Positions 42,407 through 53,253 of a stretch of DNA of 64,000 nucleotides are shown here, one piece after another. The notes under the pieces were generated by a model, which saw only the letters and a program-made list of their open reading frames with translations, made no database searches and was not told the DNA's origin. Source of the DNA: Thermomonas sp. HDW16 (GTDB lineage: Bacteria; Pseudomonadota; Gammaproteobacteria; Xanthomonadales; Xanthomonadaceae); NCBI RefSeq assembly GCF_011302915.1, contig NZ_CP049872.1, forward strand, positions 1,860,001 through 1,924,000, written 5' to 3'. The position numbers and the translations under genes were made by a program. How positions within the stretch are numbered: position 1 is the stretch's first letter; each line of letters opens with the position of its first letter.

Positions 42407-42644
42407 CGCCGCCCGCCCGGGCTGCAGCGACCGACAACAGGCATCGGCAGCCGGAAACAGCAGGGAATCGACATTCACCCGCATGGGTCATCGCACATGG
42501 ATGAGGGCCATCGGCCTCCCAAGACATCGACGCCTGCCGGCAACACAGCGACCTGAATCCGACCTTCGGCCTGTCGTCCGGAAATGTATAGTTTCCGCGT
42601 CTACGGTGGGTACGGTGCCCGTCCACGAATCACGGAGAGATGTC

Positions 42645-43793
42645 ATGGGTCTTGTTCAAGCGGTGGTGGGTGCGGTTGGCGGCATGCTGGGCGACCAGTG
42701 GAAGGATTTCTACACCGTGCCGGCGGGCCTGCCGTCGACGGCAGCGCTGTTCGCCGCGGTACCGCAGGGCACCAATGCCGGGCGCGGTTCGAACACCCAC
42801 GGCTCCTCCAACATCATCAGCAACGGCTCGAAGATCGTAGTCCCGGAGGGCTACGGCCTGCTGCTGTTCCAGGACGGCAAGATCACCGGCTTCGCCGCCG
42901 AGCCGGGCGGCTACGAATGGCGTTCTGACGACATCAATTCGAAGTCGATCTTCGCCGGCGATGGCCTGGTGTCTTCGCTGATCACCCAGAGTTGGGAGCG
43001 CTTCAAGTTCGGCGGCCAGCCGGGTTCACAGCAGGCGGCGTTCTTCGTCTCGCTGAAGGAACTGCCGGACAACCGTTTCGGCACGCAATCGGAAATCTAC
43101 TGGGACGACGGCTTCCTCAACACCCAGGTCGGCGCGGTGACGCGCGGCTCGTACACGCTGAAGATCGTCGACCCGATCCTGTTCGTGAAGAACTTCGTGC
43201 CGGCCAGCTACCTGCAGCCCGGCCAGGTGTTCGATTTCACCGACCTCGACAACGCCGCCGCCGCCCAACTGTTCAATGAAGTGGTGGGTTCGCTGGCGCC
43301 GGCCTTCAGCCTGTATACCAACGACCCGAGCAAGGGCAATCGCATCACCAAGCTGCAGCAGGATTCGCTTGGTTTCGCCAAGAGCCTGTCGGATGCAGTG
43401 GAGAATGGCTACCAGTGGAAGTCGGACCGTGGCCTGGCCATCGTCAAGACCGCCATCGTCTCGATCGAATACGACGCCAACACCCGCGAGCTGCTGAAGA
43501 CAGTGCAGCGCGCCGATGCGCTGTCCGGCGCGCGCGGCAATTCCAACCTGCAGGCCAGCGTGGCGCAGGGCATCCAGTCGGCCGGCGAAAACGGCGGCGC
43601 GGCGGGCCTGATGGGCGTGGGCATGGCCACCGGCATGATGGGCATCGGCGGCCTGCAGCAACCGGCGGCACCAGCTGCAGCGGCGGCGGATGACCCGGTC
43701 GCCAAGCTGAAGAAGGCCAAGGAGATGCTCGACCTCGGCCTGATCACCCAGCAAGACTACGACGCGCTCAAGGCCAAGGCGCTGGGCCTGTAA
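42645..43793 (+). CDS. SPFH-domain protein with SHOCT tail (YdjI/COG4260 type)
   Basis: 382 residues. Residues about 60-270 form an SPFH (band 7/stomatin-like) domain: IVVPEGYGLLLFQDGKITG, DGFLNTQVGAVTRGSYTLKI. A Gly/Ala-rich linker (about 310-345) leads to a C-terminal SHOCT helix pair (DPVAKLKKAKEMLDLGLITQ). There is no clear membrane helix; COG4260 members are recruited to membranes by partners. First gene of a tight operon with a double zinc-ribbon membrane protein. RBS CGGAGAG. Confidence 0.88.
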   Translation: MGLVQAVVGAVGGMLGDQWKDFYTVPAGLPSTAALFAAVPQGTNAGRGSNTHGSSNIISNGSKIVVPEGYGLLLFQDGKITGFAAEPGGYEWRSDDINSKSIFAGDGLVSSLITQSWERFKFGGQPGSQQAAFFVSLKELPDNRFGTQSEIYWDDGFLNTQVGAVTRGSYTLKIVDPILFVKNFVPASYLQPGQVFDFTDLDNAAAAQLFNEVVGSLAPAFSLYTNDPSKGNRITKLQQDSLGFAKSLSDAVENGYQWKSDRGLAIVKTAIVSIEYDANTRELLKTVQRADALSGARGNSNLQASVAQGIQSAGENGGAAGLMGVGMATGMMGIGGLQQPAAPAAAAADDPVAKLKKAKEMLDLGLITQQDYDALKAKALGL

Positions 43794-43814
43794 GCCGCGA
43801 GCCACGCGACCACC

Positions 43815-45119
43815 ATGTCCAACACCACCAACCCGCCACCGGTGCCGCCAAGCGGCCCCGGGTCGCCGCAGGACGTACCGCCGTTGCCCGGGAGTTTCCC
43901 GATCGACCCGGCCACCCTGCCCCCACCGATCCGCGACGAATTGCTGGCGCCCGATCCTGCCGCCATCGATACCTCCGCCGAAGAGCTCAAGGACGGTGCC
44001 AACCGTTGCCCGAAGTGCGGTGCCACCGACATCAAGCAGCGCCCCGGCACCGACCTCTTGATCTGCCTGTACTGCCGCAACGAATGGCACGGGCAACGGG
44101 TCGAGGAAGAATTCGGCTTCGGCGAGGGTCTCGACCAGCTCGAGGGCACCGTTATTGCCTCCGGCGCGCGCGACATCGACGCTGATACCACCAGCCTGAT
44201 GAGCTTCAAGTGCACCGGCTGCGGTGCCGAGGTCACGGTCAATACCGAGAACGCGATGACTGCGCGCTGCCATTGGTGCCGGCACGTGTTCGGCGTCAAC
44301 GAGCAGGTGGCGAACGGCGCGGTGCCCGACGCGGTATTGCCCTTCCACATCAAGAAGGATGATGCCGTCGCGCGCATCCGCCAGTTCGTGGACAAACGGC
44401 GGCTGTTCGCGCTGAAGGCATTCAAGGAACAGTTCACGCCGGAGAACGTGGTCGGCGTGTACCTGCCGTACATGATCGTCGATGCCAGGGTGGCCGCCGA
44501 TGTCGCCGGCCACGGCGAAATCGAGACCCGTCGCTACACGCGCGGCGAAGGCGACAAGAAGAAGACCTACTACGACGCGGACGTGTACCAGGTACGGCGA
44601 CATGTGGACTTCACCGTTGACGACTTGACGCTGGAATCCTCCAACGAACGCGGCAAGCTGGACGCGCGCACCAACACCAACAACATCATCAACACGATCC
44701 TGCCGTTCGATACCAAGAACGCGGTGAAGTGGAACGCGTCCTACCTGTCCGGCTACAGCTCGGAAAAGCGCGACCTGGACGTGGAACAGCTGCGTCCGCG
44801 GCTGGAAGACCAGTTGCTGTCGATCTCGCGCGCCCAGGTCGAAGCCTCGGTGGGCCGCTACGACCGCGGCGTGCGCTGGGAACAGGAACGCCTCGACGTG
44901 CATGGCACGCGCTGGGTCGCCATGTACTTGCCGGTCTGGCTGTATTCGTACCACCAGTCCGGCAGCGACGGCGGCATGCTGCACTACATCGCGGTCAACG
45001 GCCGCACCGGCGAGACCATGGGCAGCGTGCCAGTGCAGCAGTGGAAGCTGCTCACTGCGGCAATCACCGTCGGCACCTTCCTTGAAGGCATTGCACTCAT
45101 GATCATCGGGAGCCAATGA
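43815..45119 (+). CDS. Double TFIIB-type zinc-ribbon membrane protein (YdjG-like)
   Basis: 434 residues. A Pro-rich N-terminus is followed by two zinc ribbons: Cys 65/68/84/87 and Cys 133/136/152/155. A long middle domain follows and then C-terminal hydrophobic segments (about 365-385 and 410-430). Architecture and gene order fit the YdjG partner of SPFH protein YdjI in Bacillus membrane-stress modules. It lies 21 nt after the SPFH gene and overlaps the next small gene. Confidence 0.85.
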   Translation: MSNTTNPPPVPPSGPGSPQDVPPLPGSFPIDPATLPPPIRDELLAPDPAAIDTSAEELKDGANRCPKCGATDIKQRPGTDLLICLYCRNEWHGQRVEEEFGFGEGLDQLEGTVIASGARDIDADTTSLMSFKCTGCGAEVTVNTENAMTARCHWCRHVFGVNEQVANGAVPDAVLPFHIKKDDAVARIRQFVDKRRLFALKAFKEQFTPENVVGVYLPYMIVDARVAADVAGHGEIETRRYTRGEGDKKKTYYDADVYQVRRHVDFTVDDLTLESSNERGKLDARTNTNNIINTILPFDTKNAVKWNASYLSGYSSEKRDLDVEQLRPRLEDQLLSISRAQVEASVGRYDRGVRWEQERLDVHGTRWVAMYLPVWLYSYHQSGSDGGMLHYIAVNGRTGETMGSVPVQQWKLLTAAITVGTFLEGIALMIIGSQ

Positions 45120-45373
45120 TGAGCGACGACGGTGGACTCGCCCTGCTTCTGCTCGGTCCGGCCGGTGCCGGCGGCCTGTACTGGATGCTCTATCGCTACT
45201 ACCGCAACACCGACAAGTCGCACGCCTTCGAACGCGAAACCACCGTCGATGCCAAGCCGGTGACCGGCGACGACAGGAAGGTCGATGAAGTGAAGGGCAC
45301 GCGGGAGACGCGGATCGACGGCGACAACGTGGGCGAGTACCGGCGGCGCGTGCAGCGGCTGCAGGGCGACTAG
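45116..45373 (+). CDS. Small membrane-anchored protein of the SPFH operon
   Basis: 85 residues: one N-terminal membrane helix (about 7-28, LALLLLGPAGAGGLYWMLYRYY) and a charged cytoplasmic tail. The ATG overlaps the preceding stop (ATGATGA), so it is translationally coupled and probably a component of the same complex, similar in place to YdjH. No other motif. Confidence 0.72.
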   Translation: MMSDDGGLALLLLGPAGAGGLYWMLYRYYRNTDKSHAFERETTVDAKPVTGDDRKVDEVKGTRETRIDGDNVGEYRRRVQRLQGD

Positions 45374-45957: not shown

Positions 45958-46274
45958 ACCACCCCAAAAAGGTCAATCCCACTCGCCCAGACGCTGTGGT
46001 GGCGCGCATGGCGAATGGCCTATGCAATCGCATTGCGCTCCCAAGATTGCTGCCTGGATGCCATAGGACATCGGCAAGTGCAGGATTTATTCCTGGGATT
46101 CCACAGTCTTTCCGACGGAACCGGGATATGCCTTCTGCCACCGATCTTGATGTCCTTCGCCCCGTAATCGCCTCGTTTCTTCCAATGGGACTGGACAATT
46201 ACCAGGCCCGCGAGGCCGAGGCATTCGCACTTGCCTCGGCGAACGTCCCCACACACCCAACAAGGAGACCGACC
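45958..46274 (+). other. Leader region upstream of the CxxCH precursor gene
   Basis: 317 nt without a convincing gene; in-frame codons upstream of 46275 are open from 45927, but the strong RBS (AAGGAG, 46261-46266) points to ATG 46275. It should hold the promoter of the two-gene MNIO locus. I saw no clear -35/-10 pair. Confidence 0.5.
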
Positions 46275-46514
46275 ATGGGCCGCAAGATCGCAGCCGCCGC
46301 TTACATGCTTACCCCCAACACCGTCAATGTGTCCGTTCCGGCAGGCGTCGCGAACGACCTCAAGCAGATGAACGAGCTCACCAAAAAAATCCTGGGGCGC
46401 CTCGGCTGCCTGGGGTGTCATTCCGGCTACGACATCCGCTTCCTGATCGAGCGCGATTTCCGGGTCAACCCGCAGCTCGAAATCGAAGGCTTCAACGCAC
46501 GGTTCGGCTTCTGA
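46275..46514 (+). CDS. Precursor-like peptide with CxxCH motif (79 aa)
   Basis: 79 residues, no signal peptide. The first ~40 residues form a plausible leader (GRKIAAAAYMLTPNTVNVSV, ...QMNELTKKILGRLG). The Cys-bearing core is GCLGCHSGYD with Cys 45 and 48 and His 49; a 26-residue charged/aromatic tail follows. It lies 11 nt before a DUF692/MNIO gene, the place where substrates of MNIO enzymes are normally encoded. Precursor family not recognised; it is not DUF2282/bufferin-like. Perfect RBS. Confidence 0.75.
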   Translation: MGRKIAAAAYMLTPNTVNVSVPAGVANDLKQMNELTKKILGRLGCLGCHSGYDIRFLIERDFRVNPQLEIEGFNARFGF

Positions 46515-46525
46515 CCCGATCCGCC

Positions 46526-48022
46526 GTGAACGTCCACCATTTGCCTGGTCTAGGCGTCGGGCTCGTTCTCTGGCCTGCCTTGCTGCCATTGCTGTCGGAC
46601 GGCGGCAGTGGCATCGACGTGGTCGAGATCGAGCCCGAATTCTTCTGGTTCGAAACCGGTGATCCGCGCGAGCCGATGCGCCTTGACACCGGCATCCTGC
46701 AGCAGCTGGCGCAACTGCCCCAACACAAGCTTGTCCATGGTGTGGCCGCGCCTATCGGCGGCACGCTGGGGCCACAAGCATGCCAATTGCAGCTCATGCG
46801 TGACGTGGTGGAAACCCTGCGCGCACCGTGGGCCAGTGAACACCTGAGCTTCAACGCCATCCCGTCCGGTGAGTCACGCATGGATTCCGGCTTCCTGTTG
46901 CCGCCGCTGCAGACTGCGGAAGGCGCGACGCAAGCCGCGCGCAACATCGTCGCGATGCGCCAACAGCTGCAACTGCCCGTTGCGGTGGAGAACAACGTCA
47001 ACTACCTGCGCCCGTTGCCGGGCGAATTGAGCGATGGCGATTTCATCACCCAGGTCGTGCAAGCGGCCGACTGCGGCCTGCTGCTGGACCTGCACAACCT
47101 CTGGGTCAACGAAAAGAACGGCCGTCAACCCGCGCGCGAAGTGTTGGCGCAACTGCCGCTGGATCGCGTCTGGGAAGTCCACCTGGCGGGTGGCTCCCAA
47201 CATCGTGGCTACTGGCTGGATGCGCACAGTGGCCTGGTCAACGACGAGGTGATGGCGCTTGCCGCCGAAACGGTGCCGGACCTGCCCAACCTGCGCGCCA
47301 TCATCTTCGAAATGCTTCCCGACTATCTGCCGCAAGTCGGACTGGATCAGGTGCGGCTCCAGATCGAGCGGCTGCATCGGCTGTGGGCTTTGCGACGCCC
47401 GCGCGTGTCATCACCGCGCGCACCCAGTATTGAAGCGTCGCAGTACAACGACGCCACGCGCGCCGTTCCCACGCCGGCGGCATGGGAGCAGGCCTTGGGC
47501 ACGCTCGTCTCAGGCCGGCCTTCAGGGTTGAACGCCAATGCACCGTTCCCCGCGGACGAGCCGGGCGTGGCGATCTTGCGCGAGCTGGCGCGAAACGCGC
47601 GTGCCGGCCAGATCGCAAGCGCAGCGAAGCTCACCACCCGCCTGCTGCTGGCGCACGGAGGTGAAGCCGCGTTCAACGCCGCCTTCGATCCATATGTCGC
47701 GCGGCATGCGCCACGGCAGTTCGCCAGCAGCGAGGCACTGGCTTTCCTCGACGACATACAAGGCACGGCGCTGTCCATTCCCCACCTGCTCGAGGTCGCC
47801 AGGTTCGAAAGCGCTGTCATCCGCTCCGCCCTGTCCCGCGACGAACGCATGACCCTGTTCGAAACCGATCCGTTGCCGCTACTCGCTGCCCTCGCCGAGG
47901 GGCGCCCGCCCGCACGGGCCTATGATGCCATCCCCCACCGCGTCACCCTGCGCAATGGTGCGGTTACCCGCATGCAACGCGTGGCCCTGCGGAATGGTGC
48001 CAGGGACAAGTCGCACGCCTGA
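46526..48022 (+). CDS. MNIO (DUF692) oxidative enzyme with fused HvfC/BufC-like C-terminal domain
   Basis: 498 residues. The N-terminal ~285 residues form a DUF692 TIM barrel, the MbnB/TglH/HvfB family of multinuclear non-haem iron enzymes that oxidise Cys or Asp residues of RiPP precursors. Likely metal ligands: H71 (HGV), E105-H106 (SEH), E155-N156, D188/H190, H219 (EVHL), D232/H234 and E262. The C-terminal part (about 310-498) resembles the separate partner proteins (HvfC/MbnC type; IPHLLEVARFESAVIRSA). Start GTG 46526, coupled to the precursor gene. Confidence 0.85.
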   Translation: MNVHHLPGLGVGLVLWPALLPLLSDGGSGIDVVEIEPEFFWFETGDPREPMRLDTGILQQLAQLPQHKLVHGVAAPIGGTLGPQACQLQLMRDVVETLRAPWASEHLSFNAIPSGESRMDSGFLLPPLQTAEGATQAARNIVAMRQQLQLPVAVENNVNYLRPLPGELSDGDFITQVVQAADCGLLLDLHNLWVNEKNGRQPAREVLAQLPLDRVWEVHLAGGSQHRGYWLDAHSGLVNDEVMALAAETVPDLPNLRAIIFEMLPDYLPQVGLDQVRLQIERLHRLWALRRPRVSSPRAPSIEASQYNDATRAVPTPAAWEQALGTLVSGRPSGLNANAPFPADEPGVAILRELARNARAGQIASAAKLTTRLLLAHGGEAAFNAAFDPYVARHAPRQFASSEALAFLDDIQGTALSIPHLLEVARFESAVIRSALSRDERMTLFETDPLPLLAALAEGRPPARAYDAIPHRVTLRNGAVTRMQRVALRNGARDKSHA

Positions 48023-48343: not shown

Positions 48344-48421
48344 TTGCTCGACCTGATGTGCATGGAACCGGGAAGATAACGCGATGCGGCGTTAAGGGCA
48401 CGTGACTTAACAAGAACCTTA

Positions 48422-48819
48422 TGGAAGGGCCGCTACAAGGCCTGCCTCGTCGGGGATGCAGATCACCTGCTGCGTTGCGTGCGTTATATCGACCTCAACC
48501 CGGTACGCGCGCGCATGACGGACGATCCCGCCGCGTTTTCATGGCCCAGTTGCGCCGGTCTCTGCGGCCTACGCGAAGATCCGTTGCTGGCACTTCACCC
48601 CACCCAGCGCATGCTCGGTGGCAACGCGGCGAGGCCTATCGCGCCCTGCTTGCCTAAGCGCTCAATGAGGAACACCTAGCCGCCATCCGCGCCTACCTGC
48701 AGCAGCAACGCGCCTACGGCCGCGACGACTTCCGCGCGATGGTCGAAGCCAAGACGCAAAGATTTGCCAGCGTGCGCGCGGCGTATCGGCCGACCAAATC
48801 AATGACCGCGACGGGGTAA
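48422..48819 (+). pseudogene. Remnant of a RAYT (REP-associated tyrosine transposase) gene
   Basis: Translation gives WKGRYKACLV, CVRYIDLNPVRARM and, in another frame, AIRAYLQQQRAYGRDDFRAM, all matching the intact RAYT at 50923-51621. The N-terminal half with the HUH motif is missing, a frameshift separates the two parts, and there is an in-frame stop before the second block. It ends at TAA 48817-48819 inside a repeat shared with 51731-51743. No longer functional. Confidence 0.82.
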
Positions 48820-50914: not shown

Positions 50915-50932
50915 AAATGGTGTCAGGGACAA
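50915..50932 (+). repeat. RAYT-type repeat at the 3' end of the transposase gene
   Basis: AAATGGTGTCAGGGACAA; the complementary strand supplies the TGA stop of the leftward RAYT gene. Pairs as an inverted repeat with 51688-51701. Confidence 0.85.
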
Positions 50933-51621
50933 AATGGCTTCAGCGGTGGTCGCCCAGGCGGGCGCGCCGTCGCGAACCGCCCGGTGCGCGCCTCGACCCA
51001 CGCGCGGAACCGATCTGTTCCCAATGCCCGCTGCTGCTGCAGGTAGCGCCGGATCTCGGCCAGCATGTCGTCCGGCAGGGCTTCGTCGAACAGCGCGCGA
51101 TAGGCGGCAGCACGCGACGCGGGATCGACGCCAAGGGCCAAGTAGCAAGGATGCGCGCGCAGCAGCGGGTCGTACGCCCCGGCAGCATTCGCCCGATGGC
51201 TGGACCATAGGTGCTCTGCGGGCTCAGCCACCATCCATGCACGCACCGGATTGAGTTCGATGTAGCGGCTGCAGGCGAGGAAATAGCCGTCCGACGCCAC
51301 AAGGCAGGCCTTGTAGCGCCCTTCCCACAAGGTGCCGGTGCGTCCATGCCGGTGGTTGAACAGTCCGGCGTAGTGACGCGCGAAGGTGTGCATCAGCCGC
51401 GACACCGCGCCCGCCTCGACTGGCGTCATCAACAGATGCACGTGGTTGTCCATCAGCACATAGGCATGCAGTTGGCAGCCGAACCGGGGCAACGCCTCCA
51501 CCAGGCACTGCAGGTACCGTTGGCGGTCCTCGTCGTCGAGGAAGCAAGGAAACCGGTTGTTGCCTCGTTGCACGATGTGCTGCGGGATGCCGGGGAGATC
51601 GGGACGAGGCAAGCGGGCCAT
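50923..51621 (-). mobile_element. REP-associated tyrosine transposase (RAYT, IS200-like Y1)
   Basis: 232 residues. HUH nuclease motif MDNHVHLLM and the catalytic Tyr in CSRYIELNP; the C-terminal ends in a basic Pro/Arg stretch. RAYTs are single-copy domesticated relatives of IS200/IS605 transposases that mobilise or use short palindromic repeats. The ATG at 51621 has RBS GGGGAGG; a Met eight codons upstream is possible. Inverted copies of the repeat GGTGTCAGGGACAA flank the gene. Confidence 0.92.
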
Positions 51622-51687
51622 GCCAACAGCCTCCCCGACGGGCATGGCCTCAGGCGATCAGCACAACCCGCGACCCAATGTCAGAAA

Positions 51688-51755: not shown

Positions 51756-52343
51756 CTACTCGGACCCCTTTTCGAGCTCCACCTCGAACTGGTCGCCGTC
51801 AGTTCTGAGGGACCTCGTGATCCTCACATTCTTTCTACGATATTTCGTTTGCCCAGCATAAAGCGGCACAGATGGAACTGGGAGCTCGGCCCTCTTAAGG
51901 GTGTCAAACACATGTTGCCGCCAGAAAGGCCAAACATTGTGTATGCAGTTGAAGCTCACAAACTTATCGAAGATTTCTTGCGTCGGCTCATCAAGCATGA
52001 AGTAGTCGGCGCAGAAGGTAGCTTCAAGTGTGTAGATCGGATCTATCTCGTCATCATCATTTGGCCGAACCATCCGAGTGCCCAGCTTGACAAGAATACG
52101 CAGCAGTATCTGTCTCTTCTCGGCCTCGCCCTCAAGCTCAACCTCGTACATCTCAGGCTCGACACTCCTGAACGTCTGAGTCGCACATTTTTCTTTTGTA
52201 TCTTCGCCCCAGCGAAATTCACGGTGACGACGGAGCGATGCCTCCCAAAGAGAGACATCATTTAAGTGAAAATAGCGAGTCGGATCGGCCTTTTGAGTGT
52301 CAGTGGCAGGCGCTATGGTCTCTTTTGACGTCTTCTTAGCCAT
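51756..52343 (-). CDS. mqsC: SecB-like chaperone of a toxin-antitoxin-chaperone operon
   Basis: 195 residues. The middle part has the SecB fold signature: YEVELEGEAEK..., IYTLEATFCADYFM, then FVSFNCIHNVWPFWRQHVFDTLKRAELPVPSVPL. Solitary SecB-like proteins of this type stabilise the antitoxin of TAC systems. It overlaps the mqsA stop by 8 nt and has no RBS of its own, so it is translated by coupling. An N-terminal extension of about 25 residues is not in E. coli SecB (155 aa). Confidence 0.85.
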   Translation of the reverse strand: MAKKTSKETIAPATDTQKADPTRYFHLNDVSLWEASLRRHREFRWGEDTKEKCATQTFRSVEPEMYEVELEGEAEKRQILLRILVKLGTRMVRPNDDDEIDPIYTLEATFCADYFMLDEPTQEIFDKFVSFNCIHNVWPFWRQHVFDTLKRAELPVPSVPLYAGQTKYRRKNVRITRSLRTDGDQFEVELEKGSE

Positions 52344-52917
52344 ATGCAACTTCGCAAGTTTCCCAGCGATCTGAGTTTGCTGCCGAAGAGTGAATCTTGA
52401 CGCCAGAATGCGAAATTGCGGCCGCACTCACTTTGCTCTTTAGCGGTGCACACGAAGATGGAATCGTCTTCCAACTCGGGGCGCTATCCAGCCGAACTCT
52501 TGCGAGCTCTGTAAGCACCTCCCTCGCCTCCTCGCTTTCACTAAAGACCCTCATTAGAAGATCCATAGATTTGCTATGGATAACTTCACCACGCTCATAC
52601 TTTGAGAAAGCATTTGCACCACCCCCGAATAGCTGAGATGCGATGCTTTGAGTGATGCTCCACTCCTTCCGAAATGCTTCAATCTTTCCACACGACCAAA
52701 GGCCAAGCCTTGCCTTTTTCGCATCCGCGTAAGCCAATTCGTTTTGCTTCGCCTGAACAGGAAGCACAACTTTTTCACCACATTCCGAACACTCGGAATA
52801 GCGAACGTTCGAAACGCGTAGGGGCGCACCCTCGAACTGAATGGTCTTGTCACCCACGCGCGAGGCTAGCGTGCCGATCTCACAAGCTGGGCAAAGGTTA
52901 GTCATCTGGGGACTCAT
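52336..52917 (-). CDS. mqsA: MqsA-family antitoxin with C-terminal extension
   Basis: 193 residues. The N-terminal zinc domain has Cys 9/12 and Cys 43/46 (CPAC, CSEC). The HTH domain with QLFGGGANAFSKYERGE (E. coli MqsA: IFGGGVNAFSRYEKGN) binds DNA. Residues about 140-193 are an extra tail absent from E. coli MqsA (131 aa); in TAC systems such tails are the chaperone-addiction (ChAD) region that binds the SecB-like protein. Starts directly after the mqsR stop. Confidence 0.9.
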   Translation of the reverse strand: MSPQMTNLCPACEIGTLASRVGDKTIQFEGAPLRVSNVRYSECSECGEKVVLPVQAKQNELAYADAKKARLGLWSCGKIEAFRKEWSITQSIASQLFGGGANAFSKYERGEVIHSKSMDLLMRVFSESEEAREVLTELARVRLDSAPSWKTIPSSCAPLKSKVSAAAISHSGVKIHSSAANSDRWETCEVAYG

Positions 52918-53253
52918 TCAAAGCGAATTGGACTTGTGAAACGATGTTACGTAGAGGTAGTACACACTGCGTGGAGACGGAATGCGGAATTTGATGTACA
53001 GCTGGACTGGCCTAGGCTCTGAAGGGACCTTTTGTGGATTTGTAACGTAGTCATCAAAAGGCTGTTGCTTCTCATAGGAAAGCGATCGGCGGTATTCGCT
53101 GGGGAGGAGCACATTGATGCACTCAATCGCTTCTTCTTTCGATAGACCAAGTTCCTGATAGTCCGCTTCGGCATCCATTGAAAACGTCACCTTGCCGGTG
53201 GCGATGATCTGCCTGACTTCAGCAAGTGCGTATAGTGGGCCCGCGTGTTCCAT
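52918..53253 (-). CDS. mqsR: MqsR-family mRNA interferase toxin
   Basis: 111 residues with the MqsR fold (RelE-like). The C-terminal part aligns with E. coli MqsR: YRRSLSYEKQQPFDDYV, QLYIKFRI (catalytic Tyr) and SFHK (catalytic Lys). MqsR cleaves mRNA at GCU or related sites. First gene of the mqsR-mqsA-chaperone operon, a toxin-first order typical of MqsRA. The island is clearly lower in GC than its surroundings. Confidence 0.85.
   Translation of the reverse strand: MEHAGPLYALAEVRQIIATGKVTFSMDAEADYQELGLSKEEAIECINVLLPSEYRRSLSYEKQQPFDDYVTNPQKVPSEPRPVQLYIKFRIPSPRSVYYLYVTSFHKSNSL

Follow-up and report, generated by a model that had tools for sequence, protein, structure and literature searches.

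The closest described relatives of the system analysed here are multinuclear non-haem iron-dependent oxidases (MNIOs) that act on ribosomally synthesised and post-translationally modified peptides (RiPPs) together with a partner protein. In the 3-thiaglutamate system of Pseudomonas syringae, TglHI (PDB 8hi7/8hci), enzyme and partner are two separate chains; the partner is described as docking on the barrel with its helical N-terminal region and as taking the peptide with its RiPP recognition element (RRE) (PMC10880893). PesI is described as working like TglI (PMC13060819), and in HvfBC the partner is reported to be required also for the mixed-valent iron state (PMC13419390). The bufferin and oxazolin systems (BufABC, HvfABC) combine a cysteine-containing peptide, an MNIO and a DUF2063 partner. 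The natural fusions of MNIOs published so far are MovX, the ChrH family and PflD, the last of these with a nitroreductase (PMC12452194, PMC13419390, PMC12636315, PMC12636437). Here we analyse a two-gene cassette in a 64,000-nt window of the Thermomonas sp. HDW16 genome (contig NZ_CP049872.1, 1860001-1924000), in which a small peptide with a cysteine motif precedes an MNIO that carries its own partner as a C-terminal tail. The cassette is probably a self-contained RiPP system, in which the MNIO oxidises one or both core cysteines of the adjacent peptide.

The two genes (Table 1) are separated by a gap of 11 nt, and the coordinates in the earlier note, which had described a precursor-like peptide followed by a DUF692/MNIO enzyme, were borne out. 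The only Pfam domain in the enzyme is PF05114 (MbnB_TglH_ChrH; residues 11-256, E 4.3e-41, 141 bits against a cut-off of 25). All nine iron ligands of TglH are retained, seven by alignment and H71 and E262 by position, and these residues are invariant across 119 homologue rows. The enzyme is a member of the MNIO family and a predicted oxidase. Its best NCBIfam match is BufB (120 bits, cut-off 310), followed by ApyH (100.7 bits, far under its cut-off), HvfB (96.8 bits, cut-off 360) and ChrH (NF050165; 45.2 bits of 600, covering residues 140-266 only). Because all four scores are far below the cut-offs, the enzyme is none of these by the NCBI criterion, and membership of the bufferin, oxazolin or ChrH groups was rejected at this level.

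About 206 residues extend past the barrel. The earlier note had put this extension at about 190 residues and had recognised an HvfC-like pattern in it, which is the IPHLLEVARFESAVIRSA segment of Table 1. From residue 294 onward, neither Pfam nor NCBIfam (E up to 1) nor PHROGs gives a match, and a PDB sequence search with the tail profile returned chance-level rows only. The same search with the whole enzyme gave barrel relatives plus one chance row. Since the fold matches listed for the full chain were all to the barrel, the tail was modelled alone. The model has five helices followed by a small β-α-β-β part that resembles a truncated RRE and sits in the same order as the RRE in TglI. In this fold comparison the tail resembles NGO1945 and TglI, as do the partners classified as PME-type 2, which are likewise described as lacking the Pfam DUF2063 signature (PMC12452194). 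PME-type 2 partners are described as separate genes, and the survey text names no MNIO-PME fusion (PMC12452194); here, in contrast, the tail shares an open reading frame with the MNIO.

That the tail is a fused partner is most strongly supported by the correspondence between this two-gene cassette and three-gene relatives. Of 198 family genomes, 10 matched a full-length enzyme profile with E no higher than 1e-60. Four of them, among which is the window's genome, have the full-length fused enzyme, one has a broken copy, and five have MNIOs ending near residue 300. In all five of the latter loci (L086-L090), a peptide with GCRPCLSGLDR precedes an MNIO gene of 305-318 aa, and the partner, of about 193-225 aa, has a gene of its own directly after, which overlaps the MNIO gene by four bases given a conserved (M/V)S start. 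The tail itself has no match to Pfam DUF2063. The split partners match it with 27-31% identity in BLASTP (E 1.3e-9 to 5.5e-13) and with a probability of 99.1 (E 6e-19) in a profile comparison. Compared with 14 DUF2063 partners, the split partners reach a probability of 83.7 (E 8e-6), and the two tested against Pfam DUF2063 gave faint matches under the cut-off (E 0.03 and 0.04). Homology between split and fused peptides is modest (probability 56.6, E 1.1e-4). The tail is read as a fused MNIO partner, homologous to free partners, and the split relatives and profile matches support the single-polypeptide reading of the earlier note.

Were the tail instead an unrelated domain, or an artefact of annotation (a read-through of two genes, a wrong start or a sequencing error), its lack of database matches would be expected. 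We consider this very improbable: uninterrupted fused frames of 472-500 aa occur at nine further loci, and 119 of the 120 homologues listed are 464-525 aa long, the exception (P0016) having 294 aa. These 120 are the best of 1870, from 7998 candidates scored, and many of the others may match the barrel alone. An unrelated domain was rejected on the fold and profile matches to MNIO partners. In a quick barrel tree of 46 fused, 5 split and 41 other MNIOs, the fused rows form one group (SH-aLRT 99) with the split rows adjacent, a pattern that a single fusion or fission event could explain; the tree's root is arbitrary, long branches were flagged (F_L043 among them), the fused rows are 38 of the 119 homologue rows plus 8 loci, and bufferin-type MNIOs are the sole outsiders.

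Peptide and enzyme are regularly paired. A peptide profile, independent of the enzyme, matched 8 of 395 genomes of the family Xanthomonadaceae, the window's own included, and the fused enzyme lies directly downstream in all eight; whether the peptide is conserved beside MNIO genes elsewhere, a point raised in the earlier note, is thereby answered in the affirmative. The peptide is also present in two genomes found via the enzyme, G057 and G190, the latter with a tandem pair of copies. Purifying selection on the peptide gene is suggested by dN/dS values of 0.16 (L036 vs L037) and 0.37 (L036 vs L039) in two short pairwise comparisons. Given this apparent constraint and the recurrence of the pair in other genomes, the two-gene arrangement is confirmed as real and as more than chance.

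Beyond these genomes the cassette is patchy, and it has probably moved horizontally, as its distribution suggests. The genome searches were samples, with the best 3-14 candidates scored in many genomes, so that absence is not proof. In the class (369 genomes), matches to the enzyme profile came from the window's own genome, G190 and, in part, G242 (enzyme residues 27-260, within a 295-aa frame). The enzyme profile (E 1e-40) and the peptide profile (E 1e-5) were also run on 398 evenly sampled genomes of the phylum, where each matched the window's own genome only; within the genus, the 24 other genomes searched lacked a full-length enzyme match. No plasmids with enzyme and peptide and no phages with the peptide were found. 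Luteimonas endophytica (L003/G507) has the broken enzyme copy, with a match from residue 33 and the tail in another frame; the peptide profile has no match there.

Neither Pfam nor NCBIfam matches the window peptide at E up to 1; used as a single query, the peptide found four relatives besides itself. A 10-row profile gave 841 matches at E up to 1e-3, of which the best 120 were listed; the set examined comprises 119 listed relatives and the window's own peptide. The core CxxCxSGxD is present in 119 of these 120, a count that is partly circular because the search profile itself contained the core. L40, G44, C45, C48, S50, G51, D53 and R55 are invariant across 31 aligned peptides. The 92 one-domain peptides contain 89 strict motif matches, in which the residue after the second cysteine is Cys (61), His (27) or Thr (1). 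Two-domain peptides of 136-159 aa make up 28 of the 120; of these, 20 have two strict CxxC[C/F/T]SG copies and 26 have 5-6 cysteines. Their first motif is often altered (CxxCFSGxDC) and the second is nearer to the standard, which suggests that labour is divided between the domains.

CxxCH, which the window peptide contains, is the motif of haem c sites. Such a site was set aside for the peptide, as most relatives have Cys in place of the His and there is no clear export signal. By a crude proxy for signal peptides, an N-terminal apolar run of at least nine residues, 0 of the 120 peptides scored; the window peptide has an eight-residue run (IAAAAYML, residues 5-12) that is absent from most relatives.

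We take the peptide to be the probable substrate of the enzyme. It might instead be a small folded partner or regulator, with the enzyme acting on something else: conservation spans most of the ~75-aa peptide, beyond the core alone, the two-domain forms exist, and no leader cleavage site can be made out by eye. We regard this as unlikely. The most conserved block is the cysteine motif, and the order of small cysteine peptide, MNIO and partner is described as the usual one for precursors (PMC12452194). A folded substrate is possible in any case, since the published MNIO MelH is reported to modify a 34-kDa protein as well (PMC12636315).

If the peptide is the substrate, the cysteines are the presumed target. 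The enzyme could also modify the invariant aspartate or the residue before it, as ApyH, PesH and PflD do, leaving the cysteines or CxxC[C/H] merely to hold a metal. All 31 aligned peptides have D53, the aspartate is kept at the same position in all five split peptides, ApyH is the second-best NCBIfam match, and the Cys/His exchange after the second cysteine resembles a metal ligand. On the other hand, the window enzyme has the Fe3 motif, which PesH and PflD, both Asp hydroxylases, are reported to lack (PMC13060819), and its best NCBIfam match is the Cys enzyme BufB, if far under the cut-off like the other three. An aspartate target is in our view a minor but real possibility. Given that the Fe3 ligands are retained here and reported missing there, we lean by analogy towards four-electron chemistry on the cysteines.

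In the mechanism that we propose, the partner domain, made of DUF2063/TglI-like helices and a truncated RRE-like sheet, would grip the V-x-V-x-x-P segment near the N-terminus of the peptide and bring the GCxxC[C/H]SGxD core before the iron cluster for oxidation of one or both cysteines. The fusion would replace the separate partner gene of the three-gene relatives and fix a 1:1 ratio, so that docking, peptide uptake and activation of the iron state may all take place in one chain. The product may stay in the cytosol, as there is no clear signal peptide by the crude test above and no recurring exporter or protease was seen by eye among the neighbours of eight loci (simple open reading frame picker, no family search); it could then serve as a cytosolic metal ligand.

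TglHI, with about 22% and 11% sequence identity to the window enzyme, modifies a Cys appended to the C-terminus of its peptide, and bufferins and oxazolins differ in having Sec signal peptides, separate partner genes and other cysteine motifs. The ChrH/DybH family is described as similar in having a helical domain C-terminal to the MNIO on one chain, minimal clusters of peptide and MNIO, a split version (MelH/MelHc) and a CxxC-motif peptide, but its extra domain is ~7.8 kDa (a helical bundle that is a separate protein in Cyanobacteria) rather than ~20 kDa, and its CPxCGxG motif lies at the peptide end (PMC12636315), whereas the core here is at residues 44-53 of 79. MovX of Vibrio is likewise a single-chain MNIO that needs no separate partner, but by description its extra part is an RRE/winged helix, with DUF2063-like helices unmentioned, and it acts on Asn, not on the presumed cysteines (PMC12452194, PMC13419390). 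The engineered HvfBC fusion is active and of the same type, but man-made; it is reported to yield more product than the coexpressed pair (PMC13419390). As for the peptides, adjamnio-7 (with a Novilysobacter example) comprises CxxC peptides and adjamnio-IV, given as 'Adjamnio-IV - MNIO', CxxCC peptides of 119-146 aa with 5-6 Cys, both without signal peptides (Antoine et al. 2025, PMC12452194). Compared by description only, the former fits split or one-domain peptides and the latter the two-domain ones, with an agreeing cysteine pattern and overlapping lengths. In a literature search that left most subscription journals outside its scope, we found no description of a natural fusion between an MNIO and a DUF2063-like partner, Xanthomonas included, so the system is possibly undescribed, as the earlier note had suggested.

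Table 1. Features of the cassette (window positions).
Feature	Position	Strand	Basis or remark
AAGGAG, likely ribosome-binding site of peptide gene	46262..46267	+	sequence
Putative precursor peptide gene	46275..46514	+	ATG 46275, TGA 46512-46514, 79 aa
Conserved V-x-V-x-x-P segment NTVNVSVPA, peptide residues 15-23	46317..46343	+	alignments; candidate leader strand
Conserved core GCLGCHSGYD, peptide residues 44-53, candidate modification site	46404..46433	+	family pattern GCxxC[C/H]SGxD
Fused MNIO-partner enzyme gene	46526..48022	+	GTG start 46526, TGA 48020-48022, 498 aa
MNIO barrel, enzyme residues 1-292	46526..47401	+	Pfam match, alignment, model
Iron ligands H71, H106, E155, D188, N191, H219, D232, H234, E262	within 46526..47401	+	comparison with TglH
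Interdomain linker, residues 293-316	47402..47473	+	lower pLDDT in model
DUF2063/TglI-like helical domain, residues 317-437	47474..47836	+	model, fold and profile matches
IPHLLEVARFESAVIRSA segment, residues 418-435	47777..47830	+	aligns with LPYLPDVARLEWA segment of a DUF2063 partner
Small β-α-β-β part, residues 440-485	47843..47980	+	model; putative truncated RRE

An Rfam search of the locus gave zero matches, a promoter and terminator scan detected nothing, and PHROGs and PADLOC searches on the cassette were uninformative. As the earlier note had it, no separate partner gene is nearby: none of the 11 window neighbour genes scanned (5 + 6) matches DUF2063, and the two DUF2063 matches of the genome (PF09836, E up to 1e-3; genome 51259 and 1305710) lie outside the window, adjoining the genome's two other MNIO genes (genome 50417 and 1306099). 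Window 42483-45373 encodes, in order, a Band-7/SPFH protein whose C-terminus matches SHOCT weakly (under the cut-off), a protein that weakly matches zinc ribbons, and a small matchless protein. Some 400 bp past the cassette is a short frame (48421-48657) without a Pfam match, by eye an IS200-like transposase fragment, and an IS200-like Y1 transposase (PF01797) is at 50923-51645. At 52336-53253, an MqsA-type antitoxin (PF15731, E 3.9e-16) adjoins an MqsR-like toxin (PF15723, E 2.2e-5, slightly below the cut-off). The three-gene version has upstream what we take to be a MetX-like acyltransferase (L087-L090) and a cysteine-dioxygenase-like cupin (L087, L089, L090), replaced in L086 by presumed Doc-like and AbrB-like genes. 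In G190 (L042:3017-9407), the fused system is preceded by an MNIO and DUF2063 cluster, whose Cys-rich, signal-like peptide has no Pfam match, and is followed by a convergent gene for an FTR1 iron permease with cytochrome c domains; this single case hints at a link to metals.

That these peptides form a large signal-less RiPP class, with a GCxxC[C/H]SGxD core, one- and two-domain members and whole-partner MNIO fusions, and that the product is a cytosolic metal-binder with an undescribed cysteine modification, is a tentative proposal, and the combination is more doubtful than the cassette itself. The peptide family of 841 matches points to chemistry beyond the assigned types. The HvfB study is described as having built its artificial fusion because weak contacts between enzyme and partner hamper such work (PMC13419390). 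With one protein and one peptide, the natural fusion and its split relatives would make it possible to address what MNIO partners do to activate the iron cluster.
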